Shown: piece after piece, positions 26,538-58,922 of the stretch | Layout of the letters: each line of letters starts with the position of its first letter | How positions within the stretch are numbered: the first letter of the stretch is position 1 | Assembly: GCA_013298165.1 (NCBI GenBank) | Contig: JAAFJU010000006.1 | Location: 1-64,000 of the forward strand | Direction of reading: 5' to 3' | Source of the DNA: Synechococcales cyanobacterium bin31.maxbin.ball.101 | GTDB lineage: Bacteria > Cyanobacteriota > Cyanobacteriia > Leptolyngbyales > Leptolyngbyaceae | Length of the DNA: 64,000 nucleotides | Notes under the pieces: generated by a model | Told to the model about the DNA's origin: nothing | Seen by the model: only the letters and a program-made list of their open reading frames with translations | The model's database searches: none | Position numbers and translations under genes: made by a program

Positions 26538-27623
26538 ATGCGAATTACAAAGATCTTCGTTGAAAAGTTGTTTGGTGTGTTTGACCACGAGATTCGGTTG
26601 AACCTGGACGATCGCATCACCATCATCCATTCCCCGAACGGCTATGGGAAAACGATTATCTTGAAGATGTTGGCTGGGTTGTTTAACGATCGATATTCTG
26701 AATTGAAAAGTATCCCTTATAAAAGGTTTGGTATTGAATTTGAAGACGGACAGAAGATAGAGATCGAGCCAAATGAAAAATGGGTAACAAAGATAAGAAA
26801 AGATGTGAATGTCTATCTAATCGAATCACAACGATTATTAAGTTTAACAGATGGAGAAAACAGCACTAAAAATGGAGACTCTTCTGCATTGCTATCCACA
26901 GTGATGTCCTATCCCGGAAAGTTGGCAGAGGTTATCAAAGGTGCATTAGCTGAATATGCTTCTGCCTCGCAATCATTGGATAGAAGTTTTCCTGCAAGAC
27001 TGGTTAAACGGACGTCATTTGAGGAACTGACCAATGATGAGTTTCGCAATAAATTGGCAAACTTAGAAGATTTGCGAAGTCATCTGATGAATTTAGGCTT
27101 ACTTGAAAAAAATGAAGAGAAGAGCCTTCCGATTCAATCTCAAGATATTGATGAAGGAAGCAGAAGGATTCTGTCCGTATATATTGAAGACACAGAGAAA
27201 AAATTGGGATTATTTGATGATATTGCAAAAAGACTAGATTTATTTCGAAGGATTATTAACTCGAAGTTTTCATATAAAGAGATTTTGATCGATCGTGAAA
27301 AAGGGTTTCTCTTCAAGTCTAATTACCCAGAAGATGTGGCAAATGAAGTTTCTGATTTTCTATCTCCATCATCGCTATCATTAGGCGAACAACATGAGTT
27401 AGTTATGATCTATGAGATTCTATTTCAAGTCAAGAAGCATTCTTTGGTGCTGATCGATGAGCCAGAGCTTTCGTTACACCTTGGATGGCAGGTTAAATTT
27501 CTCGAAGATCTACAGGAAATTAGTGCGTTGGCAGATCTTGATTTTTTGATTGCGACTCACGCACCCAGCTTAATTCACGATCGTTGGGACTTGACGGTCG
27601 AACTGAAAGGAGTTGCAGCGTGA
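26538..27623 (+). CDS. AAA_15/OLD-like ATPase, candidate AriA of a PARIS-type defence pair
   Basis: 361 residues of the SMC/OLD-like AAA_15 class. Walker A is SPNGYGKTIILKML (about 32-45), the ABC-like signature SLSLGEQHEL, Walker B SLVLIDEPELSLHLGW and the switch motif ATHAPSLI. A helical middle region (about 110-270) interrupts the ATPase halves. It overlaps the DUF4435 gene by 4 nt. In PARIS, AriA (AAA_15) holds the DUF4435 nuclease AriB inactive until a phage anti-restriction protein is sensed; the same two-gene architecture is seen here. The DNA is clearly more AT-rich than the flanking genes, suggesting transfer. A TAGAAT -10-like box lies at 26478-26483. Confidence 0.85.
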   Translation: MRITKIFVEKLFGVFDHEIRLNLDDRITIIHSPNGYGKTIILKMLAGLFNDRYSELKSIPYKRFGIEFEDGQKIEIEPNEKWVTKIRKDVNVYLIESQRLLSLTDGENSTKNGDSSALLSTVMSYPGKLAEVIKGALAEYASASQSLDRSFPARLVKRTSFEELTNDEFRNKLANLEDLRSHLMNLGLLEKNEEKSLPIQSQDIDEGSRRILSVYIEDTEKKLGLFDDIAKRLDLFRRIINSKFSYKEILIDREKGFLFKSNYPEDVANEVSDFLSPSSLSLGEQHELVMIYEILFQVKKHSLVLIDEPELSLHLGWQVKFLEDLQEISALADLDFLIATHAPSLIHDRWDLTVELKGVAA

Positions 27624-28468
27624 GAGAGTTGCTGACCCCGAACGACTATGCCAATGAATTACGAATGCGACGTAGTAGTCATCAAGGTACATTTCTCATT
27701 GTAGAAGGAGTTTCAGATGCAAAATCATATCGGCAATTGACCGATGCAAATCACTGTGAACTGGTCATCGCACGAAATCGGGATATGGCTATTTCGATCC
27801 TCAAGATCTTACAAGCGCCAATGGTTCCTGGTGTCGTTGCGATCGTAGACAAAGATTTTGACGAACTGAATGGGTTATTACCCGATATTCCTAATCTATT
27901 TTTCACCGATACCCATGATCTAGAAACCATGCTGCTCCGATCGCCTGCCCTCGAAAAGTTGATAAGTGAGTTTGGGTCTGAGGAGAAATTGAAAGCATTT
28001 AAGAATGATGTACGGGAAACTGTCTTGGCAGCGGGTTGTACGATCGGTTATCTGCGATGGATTTCATTAAAAGATGCGCTCCACCTTAAGTTTGAGGGCA
28101 TCAGTTTTTCGGATTTTATCGATAAAGATCTCAAAATCAATGAGTCAGTGCTGGTCAAAGAAGTCAAGAACAAATCCCAAAGGCCCAATCTTGACGTGAG
28201 CGATTTGCAGCAACGGTTAAAACACCAGAAAGATCCCAATCACGATCGGTGGCAACTGTGTTGCGGTCATGATTTTATGAGTATTTTGTCCTTTGGATTA
28301 CGCAAAGCGATCGGTTCTCAGAATCCAAACGCAGTCACGGTAGAAATTCTAGAGCGAAGTCTACGTCTAGCTTACGAGCAAGTTTATTTCCAAGCCACTG
28401 AGCTGTATGTCACGATCGGACGTTGGGAAAAAGATCACCATCCCTACCGCATTTTAAAACTTATCTAA
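27620..28468 (+). CDS. DUF4435/TOPRIM protein, candidate AriB effector
   Basis: 282 residues from GTG 27620, which overlaps the previous TGA as GTGA and has AAAGGAG 7 nt upstream. The N-terminal part reads GTFLIVEGVSDAKSYRQL, with the TOPRIM-type Glu29, followed by VVAIVDKDFDEL, the paired Asp motif, and THDLETMLL. These are the DUF4435 hallmarks. In PARIS this protein is a tRNA-cleaving nuclease once released. A helical C-terminal half (about 150-282) is typical. It ends only 12 nt before ureF. Confidence 0.85.
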   Translation: MRELLTPNDYANELRMRRSSHQGTFLIVEGVSDAKSYRQLTDANHCELVIARNRDMAISILKILQAPMVPGVVAIVDKDFDELNGLLPDIPNLFFTDTHDLETMLLRSPALEKLISEFGSEEKLKAFKNDVRETVLAAGCTIGYLRWISLKDALHLKFEGISFSDFIDKDLKINESVLVKEVKNKSQRPNLDVSDLQQRLKHQKDPNHDRWQLCCGHDFMSILSFGLRKAIGSQNPNAVTVEILERSLRLAYEQVYFQATELYVTIGRWEKDHHPYRILKLI

Positions 28469-28480
28469 AGAGGTTCACCA

Positions 28481-29155
28481 ATGAATCATCCCACCCTTCT
28501 CGCACTCCTTCAACTCACGAGTCCTGCCCTACCGATCGGAGCCTACAGTTATTCCGAAGCTTTAGAAACCTTAGTGGAGCAAGGCTTAATTCGATCGGCT
28601 TCTGATCTACAAACCTGGTTAGAGGAATCATTGGCCACAGGTTCAATCGCGGTGGATCTGGCGGTATTGCTGCGGGCGCATCGGGCTTGGAATCGGGACG
28701 ATCGCGACAATCTAATCTATTGGAATCACTGGTTGTCGGCGACCCGAGAAACGGCAGAATTGCAACAGCAAAGTTGGCAAATGGGCCGATCGCTGCTGAA
28801 ATTATTACAAAATCTTTATCCCCAAAATGATTGGACTGTTTGGGATATGAATTTGAATTGGAATATTGCGATCGTGTTTGCAATGGCTGCAGGACTTGCA
28901 GAAATGGATGAACAGACTGCCGCTTTGGGCTATGCCTATAGCTGGGCTAGCAACGGGGTGAGTGCAGGGGTGAAGCTGATCCCCTTAGGTCAGACGGCAG
29001 GGCAGCAATTGATGTTGCGTTTGACTGAACCCATTGCTCAAGCCGCCGATCGGGCTGTGATGGTGACAGACGATCGGCTCTTTAGTTGTAATTGGGGGTT
29101 GACGTTAGCCAGCATGGCCCACGAAACTCAATACAGTCGGTTATTCCAAAGTTAG
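28481..29155 (+). CDS. ureF: Urease accessory protein UreF
   Basis: Part of the UreD-UreF-UreG complex that carbamylates and loads nickel into urease. The N-terminal [32 protein letters not shown] is the family signature. The Gly-rich [23 protein letters not shown] and the ending [23 protein letters not shown] are also typical. 224 residues, complete. The ribosome-binding site AAAGAGG precedes ATG 28481. It is tightly spaced after the DUF4435 gene and 10 bp before ureG. Confidence 0.95.
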
Positions 29156-29165
29156 GTCAAACATT

Positions 29166-29780
29166 ATGACGACATCGCCTTTTCGGATTGGGGTTGCTGG
29201 GCCAGTGGGTTCGGGTAAGACGGCATTGGTTGAAGTGCTGTGCAAACGATTGCGCGATCGGTACCAGTTGGCGGTCGTCACCAATGATATCTATACCCAA
29301 GAGGATGCTGAGTTTTTAGTCCGATCGGGTGCGCTAGCCCAAAACCGCATTCTCGGCGTGGAAACAGGTGGTTGTCCCCATACGGCCATTCGAGAAGATG
29401 CGTCGATGAACATTGCGGCGATCGAAAAGCTCGAACAAAGTTTCACGGATTTGGATTTGATCTTTGTGGAAAGTGGTGGCGACAATTTGGCGGCGACGTT
29501 TAGTCCGGAGCTGGTGGATGCGACGATTTATGTGATTGATGTGGCGGGTGGCGATAAGATTCCACGTAAGGGTGGACCGGGGATTACTAAATCAGATCTG
29601 TTGGTGATTAATAAGACGGATTTGGCTCCTTTTGTGGGTGCGAGTTTAGAGGTGATGGATCGAGATTCCCGGAAAATGCGTGGCACGAAGCCCTTTGTTT
29701 TTACCAATCTCAAGACGACTGAAGGCATTGAAGCGGTCCTGACGTTTATCGATCGGCAAACCAATCTCCGTCCCTCATAA
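29166..29780 (+). CDS. ureG: Urease accessory GTPase UreG
   Basis: SIMIBI GTPase that delivers nickel to urease. The P-loop is [15 protein letters not shown] (about 9-23). Other motifs are [33 protein letters not shown] with the metal-binding Cys-Pro-His, [15 protein letters not shown] and NKTDLAP. 204 residues, complete. It is followed after 26 bp by the first 57-bp repeat. Confidence 0.97.
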
Positions 29781-29806
29781 TGGCTGATTTTAACGGTTTG
29801 TTAGTG

Positions 29807-29863
29807 CGATCGCAGTTCCCGATCGCACTGACGAAGGCTTAAGGCGGCTGAGGGAGGGGCGAT
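29807..29863. repeat. 57-bp dispersed repeat, copy R1
   Basis: The first of three ungapped 57-bp copies (R2 30531-30587, R3 31585-31641). The left half forms a 10-bp hairpin, AGTGCGATCG (29803-29812) with CGATCGCACT (29820-29829). The right half holds GAAGGCTTAAGG and GCTGAGGGAGGGGCGAT. R1 and R3 differ at 2 of 57 positions, R1 and R2 at 6. It lies just after ureG. Confidence 0.92.
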
Positions 29864-29950
29864 GGTCTGCGACCGACCTTTGGTCATCGGACTTTTCAGA
29901 GTGGCAAGATCTCATTTATCATGAGACTATGTACAATTTTGGAGAAGGTG

Positions 29951-30283
29951 GTGCAACTTCCTCAGGACGCTACGATCGCCCCAGCTAAATTAAATCGCTA
30001 TCTTCTGGTGTGGCGAGCTACAGATGATAAGTCTAAGTTTTTAGCGCGGGCTGGGTATGGAATCGACAATTGGGAGCAATTAGAGATTGACCTGCGGAGT
30101 CAGATTTTGCCGTTGGATGCGCTGCCCAGTGAAGAGATAAATCGGTTTGGTGATGTGTATGAAATTCGAGGAATGCTGGTGGGTCCAAATGGTGTGATTT
30201 TATCGGTAATGACGATTTGGATGATTGAGTTTGAAACGACGACTACGAAGTTCATTACGTTATATCCCGATCGAGAGGACTAA
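29951..30283 (+). CDS. DUF6883-like protein
   Basis: 110 residues from GTG 29951 (GGAG 6 nt upstream); an ATG at 29921 would add ten residues. The pattern LNRYLLVWRATDDKSKFLARAGYGIDNWEQLEIDLRSQIL and the later FGDVYEIRGMLVGPNGVILSVMTIWMIE fit the DUF6883 family, which often sits next to DUF4926. Such domains are seen in polymorphic-toxin contexts, but no biochemical role is known. It is paired with the next gene, 3 nt apart. Confidence 0.7.
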   Translation: MQLPQDATIAPAKLNRYLLVWRATDDKSKFLARAGYGIDNWEQLEIDLRSQILPLDALPSEEINRFGDVYEIRGMLVGPNGVILSVMTIWMIEFETTTTKFITLYPDRED

Positions 30284-30286
30284 AAG

Positions 30287-30532
30287 ATGGCATTTGAATT
30301 ATTTTCGCGAGTGGCTTTGAACGTGAATGTGAGTGAACATGGTCTACAACGTGGAGATGTTGCGACGATCGTGGATCATCATCCGGTGAGCGAGGGTGAG
30401 GATGGCTATAGTCTAGAAGTGTTTAATGCGTTGGGTGAGACGATCGCTGTGCTGGTGCTGGCGGAGTCGCAGATTTCACCGATGATGCGAAATGAGGTTT
30501 TACAGATTCGGGTGTTGGATCAGGTGAGCTAG
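30287..30532 (+). CDS. DUF4926-like protein
   Basis: 81 residues. The layout LFSRVALNVNVSEHGLQRGDVATIVDHHP...DGYSLEVFNALGETIAVLVLAESQI matches the small DUF4926 family, a compact beta fold with RGDVATIVD as its key motif. It is coupled to the DUF6883 gene. Its TAG stop overlaps the first base pair of repeat R2. Confidence 0.8.
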   Translation: MAFELFSRVALNVNVSEHGLQRGDVATIVDHHPVSEGEDGYSLEVFNALGETIAVLVLAESQISPMMRNEVLQIRVLDQVS

Positions 30533-30587
30533 ATCGTAGTTTCCGATCGCACTGATGAAGGCTTAAGGAGGCTGAGGGTGGGGCGAT
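30531..30587. repeat. 57-bp dispersed repeat, copy R2
   Basis: 51 of 57 positions match R1, without gaps. It begins inside the stop codon of the DUF4926 gene. Similarity to R3 continues past the 57 bp into GGAGGCTTCAC (about 30600-30610). Confidence 0.9.
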
Positions 30588-30706
30588 CGGTAGTCTTAGG
30601 AGGCTTCACTAATGTAGATTCTTGTGCAGACTCAACTCCTGAGTTGAAACGAAACACTCACCTTCAGATAAAATGTGTAAGGTTGATTCTTGGGATAGTA
30701 AAGTTT

Positions 30707-31228
30707 GTGGCAGAAAAACGACTTTCAGGATCGGGAGGCTATTGGGATGTTCTTGAGGAATCAGCCGATCCAACGGTCATTAAGCAATTCAATGATGATG
30801 CTTGTGCAGCGGCTTGCGGAGAGATGCTGTTAATCGATCGCGGTTGTCAGTCGATCTCACAACAAGAGATCGCTCGCTGTGCAGGAGGTGTGCCGATGGA
30901 AATTGCGATCTTGGCGCTTACCTTGAATCAATTGGGAGATCTGGCGGGAAGATGGATTGGAGCACCGATCGGGATTGATGGTGCGACGGATGAGGATCTC
31001 TTGCGGGTGCTGATGGGGACGGGAAGTTGGGCGGCTGGGTTCTGGGAAGATGGTGCGCCGATCGGTCATGTGGTGGTGGTAGATGGGTTTGATGAGTTAG
31101 GTCGAGTGTTGATTCGGGATCCTTGGGGATTGCAACGTAGCTCAATGCAAGGTGTTCGGTATAAAATGAAAGCAGATACATTTTTGGATGTTTGGAGCCG
31201 ACAAGCTGTTTATTTTGTGAAATTATGA
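30707..31228 (+). CDS. C39/papain-like cysteine peptidase-fold protein
   Basis: 173 residues from GTG 30707; the frame upstream runs into repeat R2 and is not protein-like. Candidate triad: Cys33 or Cys37 in FNDDACAAACGEMLL, His121 in IGHVVVVDGF and Asp138 in LIRDPWG. That order and spacing is the papain-like/C39 arrangement. There is no signal peptide, GG-leader or transporter domain. It overlaps the next gene by 4 nt (ATGA). It may be a toxin-type protease or a peptidase-fold effector; the substrate is unknown. There is no good ribosome-binding site, so the start is uncertain. Confidence 0.75.
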   Translation: MAEKRLSGSGGYWDVLEESADPTVIKQFNDDACAAACGEMLLIDRGCQSISQQEIARCAGGVPMEIAILALTLNQLGDLAGRWIGAPIGIDGATDEDLLRVLMGTGSWAAGFWEDGAPIGHVVVVDGFDELGRVLIRDPWGLQRSSMQGVRYKMKADTFLDVWSRQAVYFVKL

Positions 31229-31560
31229 ACGTGACTCTTCTAGCGATCGATCCAACCGCTGAATCCAATGCCTGGACTGTTGTGCTGCAAGTGGGTGAGG
31301 ATGTAGAGCAATTTCAGATTGTTCGAGAATCTGTGTTGATTGGAGATTGTCAAGGATGGGCGTTCAATGCGGAGCCTCGATTTTACGATCGGTTTCAATT
31401 TAATCAACAGATTACGCATGAGGTTTTTCAAGTGTTGCGCCAGATCGTGAACGGTGAATCGATCGCGTTACCCAGGTTGATCGATCGGTTCTATAGTTCT
31501 CGGGAAGCTCAAGCGGAAATGCTCGATCGGCGTGGGGAAAAGCTGGAAGTTGTGGGTTAG
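31225..31560 (+). CDS. Partner protein of the C39-like peptidase, unrecognised
   Basis: 111 residues from ATG 31225, overlapping the previous stop as ATGA. The sequence (MNVTLLAIDPTAESNAWTVVLQVGEDVEQFQIV...) suggests a small beta-rich N-terminus and a helical C-terminus (HEVFQVLRQIVNGESIALPRLI). Its coupling to the peptidase gene suggests a cognate partner such as an inhibitor or immunity protein; this is inference from position only. Confidence 0.6.
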   Translation: MNVTLLAIDPTAESNAWTVVLQVGEDVEQFQIVRESVLIGDCQGWAFNAEPRFYDRFQFNQQITHEVFQVLRQIVNGESIALPRLIDRFYSSREAQAEMLDRRGEKLEVVG

Positions 31561-31584
31561 CAAGGATTACCGATAGCATCTCAA

Positions 31585-31641
31585 CGATCGCAGTTCCCGA
31601 TCGCACTGACGAAGGCTTAAATCGGCTGAGGGAGGGGCGAT
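31585..31641. repeat. 57-bp dispersed repeat, copy R3
   Basis: 55 of 57 positions match R1, without gaps. It begins 24 bp after the partner gene. Downstream it shares GGAGGCTTCAC (31652-31662) with R2. It closes the two-cassette block on the ureC side. Confidence 0.92.
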
Positions 31642-31734
31642 TCCCGTTCCGGGAGGCTTCACCAACGGTGGGCTTAAGAGAGCGTACAGAATTTTGATGC
31701 CGTCCGTTGCACTAGGTTTGTTGGGTGGCAACCC

Positions 31735-32271
31735 TCATTGCGTTGCCATTTCTTTCAGTTTGCAAACAGTATTCCAGTTGCGATCGGTCATGGGTACACC
31801 CAGTAACTTCTCGCTACTTGCAGCGAGCTTAGACCTGCCGATACCTTCCGGTGCATGTAGATAAAAGATGCGATCAATTAAACAAAACCGCTCGCTATCC
31901 TTCTTTAGGCTTTCCAGTTTCTTCAAATCTGGATTCTCTGGTGCAACTGCTAAAAAACCAAGGTGCAATGAACTAGGTTCGGATTCTGCTTCTGGAAATG
32001 GATTGTTCGTCATTGCCGTTTCAACTTCAGAAGGTTCAATGACGAGAATCTGTGGTTCAAATCCTCGTTGTTCCTTGATTTCAGTCCCAAGTCTTTTGGA
32101 GAAGCTAGAAATGTCATTTGACGCAATTTGGAATACTACGTTGCCACTTTGAATATAGGTTTTGGCATTGCTGGCACCCAAGATTTCAAAAATGGATGTG
32201 AGATCCTTCATGGGTAAAGAGTTCTTACCACCAACGTTAATGCCTCTAAAAAGTGCAATGTATGTGTGCAT
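31735..32271 (-). CDS. DUF1697 family protein
   Basis: 178 residues. The start MHTYIALFRGINVGGKNSLPMKDL is the strongly conserved DUF1697 opening, and AKTYIQSGNVVF follows as expected. The C-terminus DRNWNTVCKL is also typical. It is a common accessory-genome protein of unknown function. It is convergent with the peptidase cassette. Confidence 0.92.
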   Translation of the reverse strand: MHTYIALFRGINVGGKNSLPMKDLTSIFEILGASNAKTYIQSGNVVFQIASNDISSFSKRLGTEIKEQRGFEPQILVIEPSEVETAMTNNPFPEAESEPSSLHLGFLAVAPENPDLKKLESLKKDSERFCLIDRIFYLHAPEGIGRSKLAASSEKLLGVPMTDRNWNTVCKLKEMATQ

Positions 32272-32400
32272 AAATCACCCTATGAATTCACTGGTTGTCG
32301 CTGCCCAACGTTTCCGGTCTGCGGCTGTGAGCCACGTACCGTAACTATAGATCAACTTTGCCAGCCCGTAGCACCGGGATTGTTAGAGAACGGCAGGTTG

Positions 32401-33084
32401 TCAAGATTCATAAATTACTATGGTCTGTTCCTTTTTTACTGCTTCCTCATACCATTCAGTGATTTCGTCAAGTGAATCTTTCAAATTCTCCAGCTCCACA
32501 CCAGCCGTTTCAGATTGATAACTGAACACCTGACATAACATTTCCCACCGTTCACTTAAATCACTTGCGCGCAAAGCACTCAAAGCACGATGTACCGTCT
32601 GCACTTCATCCAAGGATAGGCACTTCACATAACCATGTCCGCTAATGTTGCCAATTTCTCGACTCCCAAGTAAGGCATTGACCATATATAAATCCTGTCT
32701 CTCATCATACTGGGCAAGAAAATCACATAGCTCGTAGCCGATCGCCCCACTCAAAAACCAGTTCAAACTCGGCGGATCGCCGAAAACTGAGCGCAGATCT
32801 TGCAAACAAAGGGATTGATTCTGGGCTTCTTCAATAATCTGCGGAAGGAATGCCTGAACTTGGTCAAAAATCTCAGGTGTGACGAAGTGGTAAGGTGATT
32901 CCGGATAATATTCTTGAATAAACGATCTGTTCTCTTGAAGCTGCTGAATTGCAATCAACGATAATGGTTCAGGATGTTCCAAAATCTTGTAATAACCAAG
33001 GAATAGATCGACTAGCCCTGGATGCCGCTCTAATAAATCAAGGGTTCCAGATGATACATGGTGCAAATATAAATCAGTGGACAT
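32401..33084 (-). CDS. DUF1877-like protein
   Basis: 227 residues. An N-terminal part reads LHHVSSGTLDLLERHPGLVDLFLGYYKILE, then SLNWFLSGAIGYELCDFL and NALLGSREIGNISGHGYVKCLSLDEVQTVHRALSAL. This layout fits the YfbM/DUF1877 family (a threshold helix set, then a GYGPVRYLTPEEV-like motif, here HGYVKCLSLDEV). Function unknown. Confidence 0.6.
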   Translation of the reverse strand: MSTDLYLHHVSSGTLDLLERHPGLVDLFLGYYKILEHPEPLSLIAIQQLQENRSFIQEYYPESPYHFVTPEIFDQVQAFLPQIIEEAQNQSLCLQDLRSVFGDPPSLNWFLSGAIGYELCDFLAQYDERQDLYMVNALLGSREIGNISGHGYVKCLSLDEVQTVHRALSALRASDLSERWEMLCQVFSYQSETAGVELENLKDSLDEITEWYEEAVKKEQTIVIYES

Positions 33085-33954: not shown

Positions 33955-35679
33955 CTAAAACAAAAAGTATCGCTGCGCCATCGGTAATTCCGTTGCAGGT
34001 TCGCAGGTCAACAATTCCCCATTAGCACGCACCTCATAGGTTTCCGGATCAACTTCAATATTCGGCAGCAAATCATTTAGCTTCATATCGCGCTTAGAAA
34101 GATTGCGCGTATTCGTCACAGGCACCACGAGCTTGGTTAAACCCAATTGATCCTTAATGCCCCGATCGCAAGCCACCTGAGACATAAAGGTCATCGCCGT
34201 CGCCCCGATCGCCCCACCATAACTGCCAAACATCGATCGCATATGAACAGGCTGCGGCGTTGGAATACTGGCATTGGCATCCCCCATTTGAGCGGCGGCG
34301 ATCGCACCCCCTTTGATCACCATTTCAGGTTTCACGCCAAAGAATGCAGGATTCCATAGACAGAGATCGGCCAGTTTTCCCACTTCAACCGAACCCACAT
34401 GATTGGCAATGCCGTGGGTAATGGCAGGATTAATCGTGTATTTAGCAACGTAGCGTTTTGCGCGGAGATTGTCATTGCGATCGGACGAATCCACTGCCCC
34501 AGAACCCGCCAACCAACCGCGTTGCACCTTCATTTTATGAGCGCTTTGCCAAGTCCGAATAATCACCTCCCCAATGCGTCCCATCGCCTGAGAATCCGAC
34601 GAAATCATACTAAAGGCACCAATGTCATGCAAAATATCTTCTGCTGCAATGGTCTCACGACGAATTCGAGACTCTGCAAAGGACACATCTTCGGGAATGT
34701 TGGGATCTAAGTGGTGACAGACCATCAACATATCCAAATGCTCATCCAATGTATTCATCGTGTAAGGTCGAGTCGGATTGGTTGAAGACGGCAAAACATT
34801 GCTCTCACCACAGACCCGAATGATATCCGGCGCGTGACCGCCGCCTGCCCCTTCGGTGTGATAGGTATGAATGACGCGATCTTTAAAGGCGGCGATCGTA
34901 TCTTCAACAAACCCTGCTTCATTCAATGTGTCCGTATGAATGGCCACCTGCACATCATACTCATCCGCCACGCTCAGACAATTATCAATGGTCGCTGGCG
35001 TCGTTCCCCAGTCTTCGTGGAGCTTTAGACCGATCGCCCCCGCTTCCACCTGCTCAACAAGCGCCGCAGGTTGACTACTATTGCCTTTTCCGAGAAACCC
35101 AATGTTCATTGGGAAGGCATCTGCCGCTTGCAGCATTCGATACATATGCCATGGACCGGGCGTACAAGTGGTTGCATTAGTCCCTGCCGCAGGTCCAGTT
35201 CCCCCACCGATCATCGTCGTAACCCCTGAAGCCAGCGCCACTTCGATTTGTTGAGGGCAAATGAAATGAATATGCGTATCAATGCCTCCCGCCGTCAAAA
35301 TCCGACCTTCCCCAGCAATGATTTCCGTCCCTGGACCAATGATAATATCAACGCCATTTTGGACGTAGGGATTTCCCGCTTTACCGATCGCCGCAATCCG
35401 TCCACCGACCAACCCCACATCGGCTTTAACAATGCCCCACCAATCCAAAATCAACGCATTGGTAATCACAGTATCCACAGCACCAGCCTGATTGGTAATC
35501 GGCGACTGCCCCATGCCATCCCGAATCACCTTCCCACCCCCAAACTTGACCTCTTCGCCATACAGCGTCAGGTCTCTTTCGACTTCAATCAACAGTGACG
35601 TATCCGCCAGCCGCACCCGATCGCCCACGGTCGGGCCATAGGTATCAGCATAAGCGCGGCGATTCATGCGGTAAGCCAT
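33955..35679 (-). CDS. ureC: Urease alpha subunit (catalytic)
   Basis: Nickel metalloenzyme subunit that hydrolyses urea to ammonia and carbamate. 574 residues, complete. Visible features are [11 protein letters not shown] (nickel ligands), [12 protein letters not shown] with the carbamylated lysine, [29 protein letters not shown] (nickel ligand) and MVCHHLDPN (active-site flap His). It is separated from ureB by a 1.9-kb restriction-modification insertion, so it probably relies on a promoter in 35680-35839, shared divergently with the methyltransferase. Confidence 0.98.
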
Positions 35680-35739
35680 AGCAATCTCAGAGGATAAAAG
35701 TATTTGTTCGGCCCTGTCGGGGATCTTGGAAGAGATGTT

Positions 35740-35766
35740 GTACAGTGTACTTAGACTGCGTACTTA
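35740..35766. promoter_or_regulatory. GTAC-rich operator-like element between ureC and the methyltransferase
   Basis: GTACAGTGTAC (35740-35750) is a perfect palindrome about a central G. GTACTTA follows at 35747-35753 and again at 35760-35766, 13 bp apart. It lies in the divergent promoter region of ureC (-) and the methyltransferase (+). Regulation by the methyltransferase or a chromosomal factor is inferred from position. Confidence 0.45.
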
Positions 35767-35839
35767 ACTCTTGTATTTAGCAAAAATCTTTAGATTTAGT
35801 TTAGCCCATCCCGCATCTAATCCTCCGCCGTTGCATCAT

Positions 35840-37033
35840 ATGACCGTCTCAGTGATCAAATCTCAGGATTTACCTAGTACAATCAACCTTGAAGGCCATA
35901 GCGAATCGCTTACTTGTGCGGAGTATTTTGCGGGAATTGGCTTGGTTAGATTAGGGCTAGAGAAAGTTGGGTGGAATGTTGTTTTCGCGAATGATTGGGC
36001 AAAGGATAAATTTGAGATGTACTCGGCTCATTTTGAGAATGCTGGCAGTCATTATCGAGTTCAAGATATTTTTTCGATTTGCCATTCTGAAATCCCCAAT
36101 ACAGTCCTGGCGACCGCATCGTTTCCCTGCACGGATCTATCGTTAGCAGGTAATCTCAAGGGTATGAGTGGCCAGTACTCTAGCGCTTTTTGGGGATTCA
36201 CTCAAATTCTAGAACGTCAGGTCCATAAGCCGCCTTTGGTCATGCTGGAAAATGTACCCGGTTGGCTAACCTCTAACGGAGGCCAAGACTTCCGATTGAC
36301 TATTCAGACGTTAAATCGGCTGGGGTATGCCTGCGATGTTTATGCGATCGATGCTGCCCATTTTGTCCCCCAAAGTAGACCCCGAATTTTTGTCATCGGC
36401 GTCCATACAAATCAAGATTACCAAACTAGATCTGTTTTTGAAAAACGCTCTATTTCATTAAAGACTCAGGCACTAGAAAAAGCGATCGCAGAGAATCATG
36501 ATTTGCAATGGATCTTTTTTGAAGTTCCACCCTTGCCGGAGAGGGTCAAGACAACGGTGAAGGATATTATAGAAAACCTATCGGATGAGGACGATCGGTG
36601 GTGGGTTGAGGATAACGTTCAACGCCATTTAAATATGATGTCGCCCATTAATTTAGACTATTTAAAAGCGCTTCAGGATTTACCCCATTTTTCTTATTGC
36701 ACAATGTACAGACGAGGCCGTGCGGGCCAACAGCGGGCAGAACTCAGAAAAGATGGCATTGCAGGTTGCCTCCGAACGGCGAGCGGCGGCAGCAGTCGGC
36801 AGATGGTGGTCAGAGTGGGGAAGGGAAGCATTAGAATGCGTCTGATGACGCCGCGTGAATATGCCAGACTACAAGGTGTGAGCGATGATTACCCGATTCC
36901 GTTACAAGTTAATCAAGCACTAACAGGATTTGGTGATGCGGTTTGTGTCCCGGTCATTTCTTGGATTGCTAAAAACATTTTAGAGTCTCTAGTTAAGTGG
37001 GTTCAACAAAATCCTGTAACTCACCATTCTTAA
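35840..37033 (+). CDS. C5-cytosine DNA methyltransferase of a restriction-modification pair
   Basis: 397 residues from ATG 35840; an upstream TTG would add 23 unlikely residues. Motif I is EYFAGIGLVRLGLEKVGW (28-45), motif IV SFPCTDLSLAG with catalytic Cys97, motif VI MLENVPGW (135-142) and motif VIII PQSRPRIFVIG (177-187). Motif IX is MTPREYARLQGV and motif X GFGDAVCVPV. The order is that of classical m5C enzymes, with the target-recognition region at about residues 225-335. Its 3' end overlaps the convergent nuclease gene by 41 bp. The recognition sequence is unknown. Confidence 0.95.
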   Translation: MTVSVIKSQDLPSTINLEGHSESLTCAEYFAGIGLVRLGLEKVGWNVVFANDWAKDKFEMYSAHFENAGSHYRVQDIFSICHSEIPNTVLATASFPCTDLSLAGNLKGMSGQYSSAFWGFTQILERQVHKPPLVMLENVPGWLTSNGGQDFRLTIQTLNRLGYACDVYAIDAAHFVPQSRPRIFVIGVHTNQDYQTRSVFEKRSISLKTQALEKAIAENHDLQWIFFEVPPLPERVKTTVKDIIENLSDEDDRWWVEDNVQRHLNMMSPINLDYLKALQDLPHFSYCTMYRRGRAGQQRAELRKDGIAGCLRTASGGSSRQMVVRVGKGSIRMRLMTPREYARLQGVSDDYPIPLQVNQALTGFGDAVCVPVISWIAKNILESLVKWVQQNPVTHHS

Positions 37034-37520
37034 TTGCTAATAGCCGAGTGCCGTGAGTCTTGACAAATCCAAAGGTAACAGATCGTCGAAACCTTTGCCT
37101 TGCTGCCGTTTCATAGTTCTCCAAAAGTTCAGGGAGCCATTTGTCAAATATAGATTTCATTTGCGATCGCTCAATCAACCAAACCTCAATATTGCCATAG
37201 CTCTCATCTCTGGTAATAAAAACATGATCAATTGCGCTGTCATTGGTTAACTTTTCTAGTCCATGGTTTCGATGATACTGGTATTCAAAGCTCCCGCCAA
37301 TCACAGCAGATTTAACTTCGTAATTCATCAAATCTGCACCGTCTCCCTGTCTTGCCCGATCGTTCAATAAAATGGCGGCAAAAACCTCCCAATCTTTTGA
37401 GCCGATGCTGCCTTGCAGAGAAAAGCCATACCGCTCATAAATTTCGGCTTTATCTCGGCTGTAGTCCAGAATATAGATTTTGTAGAAAGCATAAGCTTCT
37501 TGAACTTGAAGCGTTGACAC
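36993..37520 (-). CDS. PD-(D/E)XK restriction endonuclease, PvuII-like layout
   Basis: 175 residues. The catalytic motif is GDGADLMNYEVKSAV: Asp63, Glu68 and Lys70. The following GGSFEYQYHRNHGLEKL resembles the His-rich segment after the PvuII active site, and the ExK numbering coincides, but sequence identity is otherwise low. It is convergent with, and overlaps, the C5-methyltransferase, a normal type II arrangement. It starts 39 nt after the ureB stop on the same strand and could ride on the ureDAB transcript. Confidence 0.82.
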   Translation of the reverse strand: MSTLQVQEAYAFYKIYILDYSRDKAEIYERYGFSLQGSIGSKDWEVFAAILLNDRARQGDGADLMNYEVKSAVIGGSFEYQYHRNHGLEKLTNDSAIDHVFITRDESYGNIEVWLIERSQMKSIFDKWLPELLENYETAARQRFRRSVTFGFVKTHGTRLLAIKNGELQDFVEPT

Positions 37521-37559
37521 AAAAATCCCTCTGAAAAACTGAACTAGGATGGCCCAACG

Positions 37560-37868
37560 TTAGTCCAATGGCCCATTAATCAAACCATTAAAACCATACA
37601 CTTGACGACTTCCCCCATAGGCAATGAGCTGCACCGTCTTCTCGTCCCCCGGTTCAAAGCGAATCGCCGTCCCCGCCGGAATATCCAATCGCATTCCTCT
37701 CGCCAAAGTCCGATCGAAAATTAAAGCCCGATTCACCTCAAAAAAGTGAAAGTGTGATCCGACTTGAATGGGCCGATCGCCACTATTCGCTACCTGCACC
37801 GACACCACCACCGCATCGGGATTCAACACAATGTCCCCCGCCTCCACCAATAGCTCCCCTGGAATCAT
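37560..37868 (-). CDS. ureB: Urease beta subunit
   Basis: 102 residues from ATG 37868 ([17 protein letters not shown], the canonical opening), with AGGTGA upstream; a GTG nine nt earlier is less likely. Other signatures are [26 protein letters not shown] and [25 protein letters not shown]. Structural subunit of the (alpha beta gamma)3 enzyme. ureC should follow directly but is displaced by the restriction-modification genes. Confidence 0.97.
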
Positions 37869-37910
37869 ACGTTTCACCTAATGGATAAAAGATCTAAAAA
37901 ACCTCTTGCT

Positions 37911-37944
37911 CCCCCAAAAATGGGGGCTGGGGGGCCTTAAGGCC
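37911..37944. repeat. G-rich hairpin and GGCCTTAAGGCC palindrome between ureA and ureB
   Basis: CCCCC (37911-37915) pairs with GGGGG (37922-37926). After a further G-run comes the 12-bp palindrome GGCCTTAAGGCC (37933-37944), which contains the ureA stop. A similar CCCCC/GGGGG unit occurs near 23730-23750. Probably a small dispersed repeat that may tune ureA versus ureB expression. Confidence 0.6.
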
Positions 37945-38242
37945 GAATGGGATCATGAACCGTAACCAGCTTAGTTCCATCCGGAAACGTAGCCTCCACC
38001 TGAATATCCGGAATCATTTCAGGAATCCCCTCCATCACATCATTACAGGTCAGCAACGTCGTCCCATAGGTCATCAGTTCAGCCACCGTCTGACCATCCC
38101 GCGCCCCTTCGAGGACTGCGGCGGTAATATAGGCGATCGCCTCAGGGTGATTGAGTTTCAGCCCTCTATTCTTGCGTCGTTCTGCGACCAGAGCCGCCGT
38201 AAAAATCAGCAGTTTGTCTTTCTCTTGGGGCGTTAATTGCAT
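37937..38242 (-). CDS. ureA: Urease gamma subunit
   Basis: 101 residues. [57 protein letters not shown] is the near-invariant gamma sequence, and [20 protein letters not shown]-type sequence closes it. Its 3' end contains a palindrome. It lies 102 bp after ureD. Confidence 0.98.
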
Positions 38243-38344: not shown

Positions 38345-39178
38345 TTAAAGCTGCCAAACTCTAGGAATACAGGCCGATCGTCGCCGAGACTGCTGCCGTA
38401 ACAACGTCCAAATCTCAATAAACCACCGCTGCACCGCCTGCCGATCGTCCCCCCGATACCGACAAACCAAGCCCCCTTCGATCGCACTCACCCCACAACT
38501 TGCACCAGACCCAAACTCCGGCTGCGAGTCCAACGCCCGAATCTTCGCCACCATCTCCGCACCAACCGACTCGCCTAACCAAACCAATAACCCCAAAATC
38601 GGTTGCCCCGCCGCCGCTTGAAGACTCTCCCATTGATCGCCCGTAATTTGTTGACGATCGATCCGCAACGGCTGACCCTGTTTCCACACCTCCAGCGCCG
38701 TCTGCCAACAGCCCTCCGTAAAGCGTTCCGATCTTGCACTCCGCCCCAAGCGCACAATATCCCAAGCACAAAACACCGCCCCCTCCTCCAAATTAACCCG
38801 CAGGTTTTGAGCATAGAGGGCGCTGTTAAAAATAATCGTGTCCTGGGGCAACCATTCCAAATAGGCATCCCGATCGAGATTAATCACAACCTGCTGCTGC
38901 GCAAATGCTCCTGTACTTCGATAAATTTTGGCAGAGGCGGCAGTGGTGATCAATGCTTCACTGCCAGGTTCTAGATTGATTTGGTAGGACAATCGATCGC
39001 CCCCCACCATCCCGCCCGCACTGTGCAAAATCACCAGATGACAGAGATTGGGTTCGGGATAAAACGGGCGCTGGATTTTGAGAGGGGCTTGGGCATAGCT
39101 TTTCTGAAGGATGGTCTTTTCACCCTCCAATCGAAACTGTAAATCAATCTGACCCTGCCAAGTTGTCGTCGAACTCAT
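38345..39178 (-). CDS. ureD: Urease accessory protein UreD
   Basis: Scaffold of the nickel-loading UreD-UreF-UreG complex. 277 residues from ATG 39178; a TTG at 39184 is less likely. Family features are LHSAGGMVGGDRLSYQINLEPGSEALITTAASAKIYRS and YLEWLPQDTIIFNSALYAQNLRVNLEEGA, plus WDIVRLGRSARSE. It leads the ureDAB transcript. The upstream region holds a long palindrome at 39229-39264. Confidence 0.95.
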   Translation of the reverse strand: MSSTTTWQGQIDLQFRLEGEKTILQKSYAQAPLKIQRPFYPEPNLCHLVILHSAGGMVGGDRLSYQINLEPGSEALITTAASAKIYRSTGAFAQQQVVINLDRDAYLEWLPQDTIIFNSALYAQNLRVNLEEGAVFCAWDIVRLGRSARSERFTEGCWQTALEVWKQGQPLRIDRQQITGDQWESLQAAAGQPILGLLVWLGESVGAEMVAKIRALDSQPEFGSGASCGVSAIEGGLVCRYRGDDRQAVQRWFIEIWTLLRQQSRRRSACIPRVWQL

Positions 39179-39228
39179 AAACAAACCATCAATTTCATAA
39201 AACGGAAGCGTGATCTCATCCTATCAGG

Positions 39229-40900: not shown

Positions 40901-41142
40901 ATGCCTCAAACAGAACAAGATTCAGACAGTCAGAGGGTCATCTTGCATGGGATGAGTTGGGCGATCTATGAATCGATGCTAACCGACTTGGGCGATCGCA
41001 AAACCAGAGCCATGCGTTCCCCATGCTCACGATCGATCAACTCCTCACCTTTATCCAACAGCGCGAAACCCTAGATGACAATGGCGTCGTCCGAAACGTT
41101 CGCAAATGGATTCAGGAATGGATCTCTCATCAATCAGTGTGA
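40901..41142 (+). pseudogene. Uma2-family pseudogene with an internal deletion
   Basis: The N-terminal Uma2 motif RVILHGMSWAIYESMLTDLGDRK is read from ATG 40901 in one frame. It then breaks at about 41010. The family C-terminus (LTFIQQRETLDDNGVVRNVRKWIQEW, 41023-41142) continues in another frame. The catalytic core, normally over 100 residues, is gone. It is a remnant of the same family as the intact gene at 17524-18264. Confidence 0.8.
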
Positions 41143-41171
41143 TCAAATCTCTGAACGAAGAAGCATTCACC

Positions 41172-41558
41172 ATGAACCGGGATCCTTGGATTGAACGTTT
41201 ACACGAAAATCGCCTCATGCGATCGGTCTCAGAAGTGATGACCTTTGAGACGACCTTAGCGCTACTCGCTCAGAACCCCGACCCATCGGATCTGCTGAAC
41301 TTACATCTGATTTTGGATGATGCCTGTGAACAGCCCGAGGTGATGTTTGGGCTGATTCATTTTTTAGAATCGTTTGATCTCAGAACACAGGTCAAGGCAT
41401 TTGTTCAAGCCAGACCCCAACTCAACCACCAAGCCACTGAATGGTCCGACATTCTTCAGTCTCGACTCATGAACGATCCGATCGCCCGATCGGTCCTTGA
41501 AGACGAGCTGCGATCCGAACTCAAACCCAAAATTGCGATCGGCTCCAAAAACACGTAA
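41172..41558 (+). CDS. Imm30-family immunity protein, orphan
   Basis: 128 residues from ATG 41172; in-frame upstream starts fall inside the Uma2 pseudogene. The Imm30-type pattern is visible: RLMRSVSEVMTFETTLALLAQ, then LHLILDDACEQPEVMFGLIHFLESFD. Immunity proteins of this class protect against polymorphic or contact-dependent toxins. No matching toxin is adjacent, so it is an orphan in this window. Confidence 0.75.
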   Translation: MNRDPWIERLHENRLMRSVSEVMTFETTLALLAQNPDPSDLLNLHLILDDACEQPEVMFGLIHFLESFDLRTQVKAFVQARPQLNHQATEWSDILQSRLMNDPIARSVLEDELRSELKPKIAIGSKNT

Positions 41559-56717: not shown

Positions 56718-58238
56718 ATGGAAATGGGAAACCGATCGTTACGACAAATGCTTCCACTGATTGGATTAACGCTTGCGCAGGTGGTGGGCATTGCGCAGGT
56801 GGTACGATCGGCATCGTTTGAAATGATTCCTTATGTCAAGAGTCGATCGGCATCGCTTGATATCGTTCCTAATGTCAAGAGCTACTTAGGGATTGAATGT
56901 TCTCCTTCTGCGCTGGATTTTCCTCCTATTCAATCTTTAGCCATCATCCCTGGATATCAAAATAATCACTCAGCAAAGATTTCTAGTCTCGTGCAGACAT
57001 TGCGCCAATCTTCACCCAAAAATCAAACAAATGATGAAGCAATCGAGGCCCTCGCAAAGTTTGGAGAACCTGCAATCCCACAAGTCCTTCCGTTACTGAA
57101 AGCCTCTGATACATGGATACGCTTAGATGCACTCAAAGTACTCAGCAGAATGGGCGAATCTGCAAAAGAAGCAATTCCATCTCTCATTTCACTCCTCAAT
57201 GACCCTAGCCAAGAGATTAGAGCAGGCGCGGCACAGACAATCGGAAGCATGGGGAAATCTGCTAAGGCAGCCGTACTATCGTTAATTGCGAGACTAAAGG
57301 ACAGCAGTGTATCCGTTCAATTGAATGCGACATGCGCGCTTGGAAGACTAGCAGAATCAGGGAAAGAAGCCGTTCCAGACTTAATCATACTTCTGAAGAG
57401 TCCTGATGCAAATGTTCGACTAGGTGCCATATCTGCTCTGGGAAGCATGGGTGACTCTTCCAAAGAAGCCATCCCATCTCTGATTCAACTCCTGAACGAT
57501 AAGACAATACAAATTCGAGCAATGGCGGTCTATGCACTTGGAAGAATCGGACCCTCTGCAAAAGAATCGATTCCAGCATTAATTCCATTTCTTAACGATC
57601 CTGACAAAGATATTCGATTGATTACAATGCAGGCCATTGGAAATATCGGTGAATCTGGACAGTTAGCCGTTCCATCTTTGATGTCACTTTTCAAAGATCC
57701 TGACAAAGATATTCGATCGATCGCAATACAGGCCATTGGTAAAATAGGAGAATCTGCACGATCAGCGACACCCTCTCTTATTTCACTTTTAAAAGATCCT
57801 GATAAAGAGGTGCAATCAAGTGCGGTAGAGACAATTGGTAAAATGGGGGAATCTACAAAATCAGCTATTCCTGCTCTGATTCCTCTCTTACAAGCTCCTG
57901 AACGGGACCTCCAATCCAATGCAGAAAAGATTCTGGTCAGCATGGGAATCTCCTCCGTCCCACTATTGATTCCTCTTCTTGAAAGTCCTGATGTACATGT
58001 TCGATCGAGTGCTGCAAGCGTACTTACAAAGATAGGGCCGTCAAGTATTCCTTCTATTATTCCACTTCTCAACAGCGATGATATGTACACGCAATCAAGT
58101 GCTGTAGATACGATCGGAAACATGGGAGAATCTGCAAAATCTGCAATTCCGACCCTAATTCCGCTCTTGAAATCTCATCATTCCTACGTCCGTTCAAGAA
58201 CATCCTATGCTTTGAAAAGATTAGGCTACAAGCCCTAA
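56718..58238 (+). CDS. HEAT/PBS-lyase-like repeat protein
   Basis: 506 residues. An N-terminal hydrophobic segment (about 12-30, LPLIGLTLAQVVGIAQVV) suggests a signal or anchor. It is followed by a duplicated 48-bp stretch (near 56808-56880) encoding SFEMIPYVKSRSASLDIVPNVKS. From about residue 95 there are about eleven HEAT-type repeats of about 39 residues (pattern GESAKEAIPSLI.LL.DP...IR..A..ALG.MG). No phycobilin-lyase motif is visible. It probably acts in protein binding at the envelope. Confidence 0.85.
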   Translation: MEMGNRSLRQMLPLIGLTLAQVVGIAQVVRSASFEMIPYVKSRSASLDIVPNVKSYLGIECSPSALDFPPIQSLAIIPGYQNNHSAKISSLVQTLRQSSPKNQTNDEAIEALAKFGEPAIPQVLPLLKASDTWIRLDALKVLSRMGESAKEAIPSLISLLNDPSQEIRAGAAQTIGSMGKSAKAAVLSLIARLKDSSVSVQLNATCALGRLAESGKEAVPDLIILLKSPDANVRLGAISALGSMGDSSKEAIPSLIQLLNDKTIQIRAMAVYALGRIGPSAKESIPALIPFLNDPDKDIRLITMQAIGNIGESGQLAVPSLMSLFKDPDKDIRSIAIQAIGKIGESARSATPSLISLLKDPDKEVQSSAVETIGKMGESTKSAIPALIPLLQAPERDLQSNAEKILVSMGISSVPLLIPLLESPDVHVRSSAASVLTKIGPSSIPSIIPLLNSDDMYTQSSAVDTIGNMGESAKSAIPTLIPLLKSHHSYVRSRTSYALKRLGYKP

Positions 58239-58316
58239 CCCGATCGATATTGATCTTCCTGCTAGTTTACGGAGGGTCGATCGACTAAGATGGGGAGAGT
58301 CTAATCCCTAAAAATC

Positions 58317-58922
58317 ATGGCCTATAGTGACTTCAGTTTAGAAGCGATCGTTGAGCAACAGGGGCTTCAGGTGCAAGTGCGTCAGGTGTTGTTCCAGGAT
58401 GTGACGCCTGTGGCTCCTAGTGATTGGCTTCAGGAGACTCTGTCGGTGACGGAGGAATTGGGATTGTTTTCTGGGACGGAGAAGGCTAGATCTGAATTTA
58501 TTATTGCGCCTATTTTGATCGAATTAGAGCGTCGAAACCGGGGTCGATTGATGATTTTTTCTGGAAAATCTTTGGATGTCGATCGATCGCAAGGACTGAA
58601 TGGTGAATGTGATTTCCTACTTTGCAAAGGTGAAACCAATCGCATTGTGCAAGCGCCGATCGTTTCGGTGGTGGAGGCCAAGAAGCAGGATTTGGATTTA
58701 GGGATTGGTCAATGTGTGGCACAAATGGTGGGGGCGCAGTTGTTTAATCAACGCAAAGATGCTGCAATACCCACGCTTTACGGTTGTGTGACGACGGCTG
58801 AACGTTGGCAGTTTCTCACATTGACGCAAGACCATCTCATGATCGATCGTCAAGTTTATAATTACCCCAATGAACTCGATCGAATTTTGGGGATTTTGCA
58901 ATTTGTGCTCGATCGGGCTTAG
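58317..58922 (+). CDS. PD-(D/E)XK-like nuclease-fold protein
   Basis: 201 residues. A conserved N-terminal SEFIIAPILIELERR is followed by LNGECDFLLCKGETN (candidate Asp) and IVSVVEAKKQDLDLGIGQCVAQMVGA (ExK), then YGCVTTAERWQFLTL. This arrangement is the cyanobacterial restriction-endonuclease-like family of unknown target. No methyltransferase is adjacent. Confidence 0.8.
   Translation: MAYSDFSLEAIVEQQGLQVQVRQVLFQDVTPVAPSDWLQETLSVTEELGLFSGTEKARSEFIIAPILIELERRNRGRLMIFSGKSLDVDRSQGLNGECDFLLCKGETNRIVQAPIVSVVEAKKQDLDLGIGQCVAQMVGAQLFNQRKDAAIPTLYGCVTTAERWQFLTLTQDHLMIDRQVYNYPNELDRILGILQFVLDRA

Follow-up and report, generated by a model that had tools for sequence, protein, structure and literature searches.

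In the urease locus of a cyanobacterium of the family Leptolyngbyaceae, the genes for the beta and alpha subunits of urease are parted by a cytosine methyltransferase gene and a small gene that had been labelled as a nuclease, which raises the question of what this pair is, how it came to lie there and whether an operon was split by its arrival. The window, that is, the whole stretch of DNA analysed (64,000 nucleotides), holds ureD, ureA, ureB and the nuclease gene in this order on the minus strand, followed by the methyltransferase gene on the plus strand and then by ureC on the minus strand, which is the gene order that the original prediction had described. The relevant features are as follows.

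28481..29780, plus strand: ureF and ureG, named by family resemblance, on the strand opposite to ureC and about 4 kb away
33955..35679, minus strand: ureC, urease alpha subunit, full length at 574 aa (NCBIfam TIGR01792, 988 bits, above the cut-off)
35680..35839, no strand: divergent intergenic region of 160 bp between ureC and the methyltransferase gene, taking the ATG at 35840 as the start
35840..37033, plus strand: C5-cytosine DNA methyltransferase, 397 aa from ATG 35840 (Pfam, NCBIfam and PADLOC matches, motifs)
36993..37033, no strand: overlap of the convergent 3' ends, 41 bp (from the coordinates; kept in relatives)
36993..37520, minus strand: predicted restriction nuclease of 175 aa with a PvuII-like fold (GTG start at 37520, GAGGG upstream)
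37521..37559, minus strand: 39 bp from the ureB stop to the nuclease start (leader alignment with relatives)
37560..37877, minus strand: ureB, urease beta subunit (Pfam PF00699, 5.5e-44)
37937..38242, minus strand: ureA, urease gamma subunit (Pfam PF00547, 1.5e-46)
38345..39184, minus strand: ureD, accessory gene (Pfam PF01774, 3.5e-57)

The label of C5-cytosine methyltransferase is borne out by matches to Pfam PF00145 (DNA_methylase, 9.1e-52), NCBIfam TIGR00675 (180.7 bits against a cut-off of 100.65) and PADLOC MTase_II (372 bits). The motifs FAGIGL, SFPCTD, LENVPGW, QSRPR and GFGDAV can be read directly in the translation, where the catalytic PC, ENV and QxRxR motifs are intact. The listed open reading frame opens at TTG 35771; since the matches of relatives begin at residue 24 and the relatives themselves start there, ATG 35840 is most likely the true start, as judged from the alignment.

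For the nuclease, sequence searches of Pfam, NCBIfam, PADLOC and the PDB all came back empty. In an alignment with 40-41 relatives, D63, E68, K70 and an EYQYH stretch are invariant, and for the AlphaFold2 model (pLDDT 92.4, pTM 0.88) the top solved structures are without exception those of R.PvuII (Foldseek E 9.3e-7). Comparison of the model with 1f0o (R.PvuII) by VIA-align gave a Z of 10.8 and an rmsd of 3.5 over 123 residues, which placed R.PvuII ahead of NhoI (Z 8.3) and of resolvases (Z of at most 6.4), while a profile built from 41 nuclease relatives did not retrieve the PvuII chains even at E 10. PADLOC REase_II was considered as a family name and rejected as too weak, with a best value of 9e-4 and only 2 of 41 members matched. 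The earlier PD-(D/E)XK label is thus right, its basis being the predicted fold and the invariant residues, with no direct support from sequence libraries. Because a PvuII-like fold is combined with a linked methyltransferase, a type II restriction enzyme is much the most likely reading of the modelled protein, even though a fold alone is no proof of function. The two genes are best read as a type II restriction-modification (R-M) cassette, in which the methyltransferase would protect, and the nuclease cut, one and the same DNA site; the claim of an R-M pair is supported by the families and motifs of the methyltransferase, by the fold and invariant residues of the nuclease and by the co-occurrence described below.

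The present pair resembles the PvuII R-M system in the length and predicted fold of its nuclease, and many relatives of the pair also have a small helix-turn-helix (HTH) controller beside them, although this copy has none. PvuII relies on an N4-cytosine methyltransferase, and the partner here is a C5-cytosine methyltransferase; the genes here are, moreover, convergent and overlapping, and no match to PvuII is seen at the sequence level.

Of 390 genomes sampled from the class, 15 (about 4%, own genome included) carry the nuclease, and it occurs at 43 further GTDB loci, among them loci of relatives in Myxococcota, Rhodothermales, Gammaproteobacteria and Verrucomicrobia. A related C5 methyltransferase lies beside it at nearly all of these loci, the 43 from GTDB and those of the class alike; the exceptions are L133 and L144, with no methyltransferase in the flanking DNA examined, L114, which is poorly resolved, and L090, with the 3' part only. 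Relatives of the two genes, with identities reaching about 75%, are likewise found as pairs, so that the pairing is not due to chance. Close cyanobacterial relatives keep the convergent arrangement with an overlap of exactly 41 bp, which was confirmed at 36993-37033 and is found in 10 of the 12 closest GTDB loci (38 bp in L113, none in L112), and distant relatives are often in tandem. Members of the same nuclease family, at 38-39% identity, adjoin a related C5 methyltransferase (about 41-43%) on the Photobacterium damselae plasmid pdp3 (NZ_CP150465.1) and the Brasilonema plasmid pBOCT1; the former carries its genes in tandem with two HTH genes before them, unlike the convergent pair here, and the latter is convergent with an overlap of 4 bp as against 41 bp. 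In a tree of the two cassette proteins, the cassettes of the host family fall apart, and a single clade is rejected (AU p 3.4e-6). Since the cassette occupies different loci in other genomes and its tree disagrees with the host family, it moves horizontally and can be regarded as an old and mobile unit. Direct observations cover the existence of the pair, the homology and co-occurrence of its genes, their presence at unrelated loci and the disagreement between cassette tree and host family.

The cassette is absent from all three same-genus genomes compared, one of which is only 69% complete, and no urease genes were found near any other cassette, in flanks that reach up to 6 kb at the GTDB loci and are for the most part just 1.5 kb long elsewhere. 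The cassette genes have a third-position GC of 0.43 and 0.40, where the mean of the window is 0.54 (sd 0.08); these low values lie within about 1.7 sd and are common to other genes at 26538-33084. A viral origin was also considered; no relatives were present in the viral contig collection, and just one weak phage match (25% identity) was obtained, so that the idea was abandoned.

The edges of the cassette can be approached through its relatives. About 30 bp before the nuclease gene align with the leader of the relatives, which makes 37521..37559 the likely right edge on sequence grounds, and the left edge should lie within or close to 35680-35839, a region that contains GTACTTA twice (read directly) and that does not clearly resemble the palindrome-bearing leader seen in the relatives. 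Direct words common to both junctions reach 8 bp at most, and inverted ones 7 bp; neither is taken as evidence of terminal repeats or of a target duplication, because shuffles yield direct words of at least 7 bp in 23% of cases. No flanking repeat or insertion sequence was seen at the cassette edges. Among the genomes compared, neither a close relative with the same urease cluster nor an empty site was found; the same-genus genomes G001 and G002 were considered as empty sites and discarded, because their ureDA and ureFG-BC lie elsewhere and are arranged otherwise. Kobayashi and colleagues describe, in a passage of PMC3031569 citing Furuta et al. 2010, R-M genes that move between loci, on mobile elements and in operons; the present cassette is alike in its movement between loci, but differs from such cases in that no flanking repeat, insertion sequence or target duplication was found. 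The earlier claim of insertion into the urease locus stands as far as a mobile unit foreign to its place is concerned, and we infer the insertion from mobility and foreign distribution rather than from an empty site. Very probably, the locus holds a compact, horizontally acquired type II R-M cassette of a convergent C5 methyltransferase and a PvuII-fold nuclease, which settled between ureB and ureC in a cluster already prone to unrelated genes, and it would have been inserted there as one unit.

The original prediction had further assumed that the structural urease genes are normally contiguous, which does not hold in this lineage. Both genes are present in 50 genomes of the sample, this one included, and just nine of these have ureB and ureC no more than 250 bp apart; in twelve, the present one among them, the two genes are 432 to 4467 bp apart and split by other DNA; and in the other 29 they are distant from each other, lie on opposite strands or belong to different contigs, a class that contig breaks may inflate. 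The cargo of the gaps varies by genus and includes Coq4-like, DUF2237, Uma2, VapC-like PIN-domain and nucleotidyltransferase genes, as well as an AAA ATPase that resembles HEC-01A and AriA. A survey likewise found cyanobacterial ure genes to be often scattered (PMC6737895), and in Nostoc PCC 7120 an unknown gene lies between ureDAB and ureC, so that ureC is parted in the same way, although by a single gene where an R-M pair is found here (PMC6737895). From the spacing counts, the diverse gap genes and the survey, it follows that separation of ureB from ureC is common and its cargo variable. Since urease genes are usually separated in this lineage anyway, the cassette and its move are ordinary. 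In the ureB-ureC gap of L072, an open reading frame whose start, MSYRMNRRADAETFDPTVGDRV, resembles the N-terminus of UreC is fused to another protein, which suggests a partial ureC duplication; another C-terminal UreC fragment follows ureC in the same genome. Antisense to ureC in the present window, 35238-35524 (plus strand) matches the Rfam 5'-ureB sRNA (RF02514) at 88 bits against a gathering threshold of 40, a match that was set aside as probably reflecting coding-sequence conservation.

It is quite possible, if not the favoured reading, that no operon was split at all, the cassette having arrived with a block carrying the urease cluster or having moved into a pre-existing gap between ureB and ureC. 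The gaps of relatives, in which Coq4, DUF2237, VapC-like PIN, Uma2 and AAA genes are common, speak for this reading, as does the genus itself: HisF, encoded some 2.4 kb from ureD, shares 92% identity with that of the same genus, and the hisF neighbours on one side are conserved in the genus as a block without adjoining urease genes, whereas UreC falls outside the same genus (AU p 0.029 for the grouping). A group that joins UreC to both the same genus and G010 is nevertheless not rejected (AU p 0.28), UreC forms a long branch in the tree, and a donor cluster with the cassette was not found among the genomes compared; transfer of the urease cluster into the genus is thus possible. The accessory genes ureF and ureG find their best matches, at 52% and 76%, in same-genus genes of L034 and L035. 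Near the edge of the genus-conserved block, just before hisF, lies an Imm30 immunity-protein gene (41106-41558, plus strand, 1.8e-26).

The surroundings of the cassette also differ from those of its relatives in elements of control. Beside the methyltransferase, a divergent 74-aa HTH gene is present in 6 of the 12 closest GTDB relatives (L104 and L108-L112), with a fragment in L105; here ureC takes that side, no such controller adjoins the cassette, and elsewhere in the genome just a 24% match (E 0.002) was found. The same six relatives have a palindrome-like sequence, TTCATAGCAATAGCTATGAA, in the space that parts the HTH gene from that of the methyltransferase, a candidate operator that is absent here. 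Most relatives further carry a TATACT box (-10) about 36 bp before the nuclease start, a place occupied here by ureB-adjacent sequence; the exact box is also missing in L102 and L107, so that its loss is not unique to this copy. Absence of the controller and of the conserved -10 box could mark a degenerate or orphan remnant, with the methyltransferase as a possible epigenetic regulator and the nuclease possibly inactive, but this is quite unlikely, given that both frames are intact, that all catalytic motifs and the 41-bp overlap are kept, and that the cassettes of L102, L103, L106 and L107 are intact without an adjacent HTH gene.

It is a reasonable inference from the sequence that the nuclease, its -10 box lost, would be expressed by read-through from ureDAB, because no TATACT box precedes it and its start lies on the same strand as ureB, only 39 bp past the ureB stop. 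Scans for promoters and terminators yielded no excess over shuffles and no sigma-70-like match in 35680-35839. The earlier assertion that ureC must use a promoter in these 160 bp is not established: ureC may be read from a promoter of its own, which would be usual because most relatives have it separated from ureB, or by read-through. A more far-reaching and rather doubtful proposal is that the nuclease, having no promoter of its own, has become the last gene of ureDAB, so that nitrogen or urea signals would set the level of restriction, with the methyltransferase controlled from the ureC side.

A selected functional link between the R-M pair and urease or nitrogen use is highly improbable. 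The nuclease does lie on the ureDAB strand, 39 bp past ureB, and the end of a PARIS-like pair is just 12 bp from ureF, but in the flanks examined none of the other cassettes is near ure genes, and the cargo of the ureB-ureC gap differs among genera. The earlier idea that an R-M module might stabilise the urease locus is a conjecture.

Several further genes of the window may be recorded here. The PARIS-like defence pair (26538-28468, plus strand) consists of an AAA ATPase and a DUF4435 protein, which score 78 bits to AriA and 90 bits to AriB in PADLOC, with third-position GC of 0.38 and 0.43. Adjoining DUF6883 and DUF4926 genes on one strand (29921-30532, plus) possibly form a small two-gene module, and at 56718-58922 (plus strand) a HEAT-repeat-like protein is followed by a PD-DExK protein, which PADLOC lists as CRISPR-associated (8.8e-47).

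The present analysis shows that a split urease operon is nothing out of the ordinary in cyanobacteria, and that a family of PvuII-fold nucleases, which Pfam, NCBIfam and PADLOC do not contain, spreads across cyanobacteria and other phyla together with a C5 methyltransferase, the two forming a fixed overlapping pair. If the nuclease is read from ureDAB, the locus would offer a natural case of a defence enzyme under metabolic transcription.
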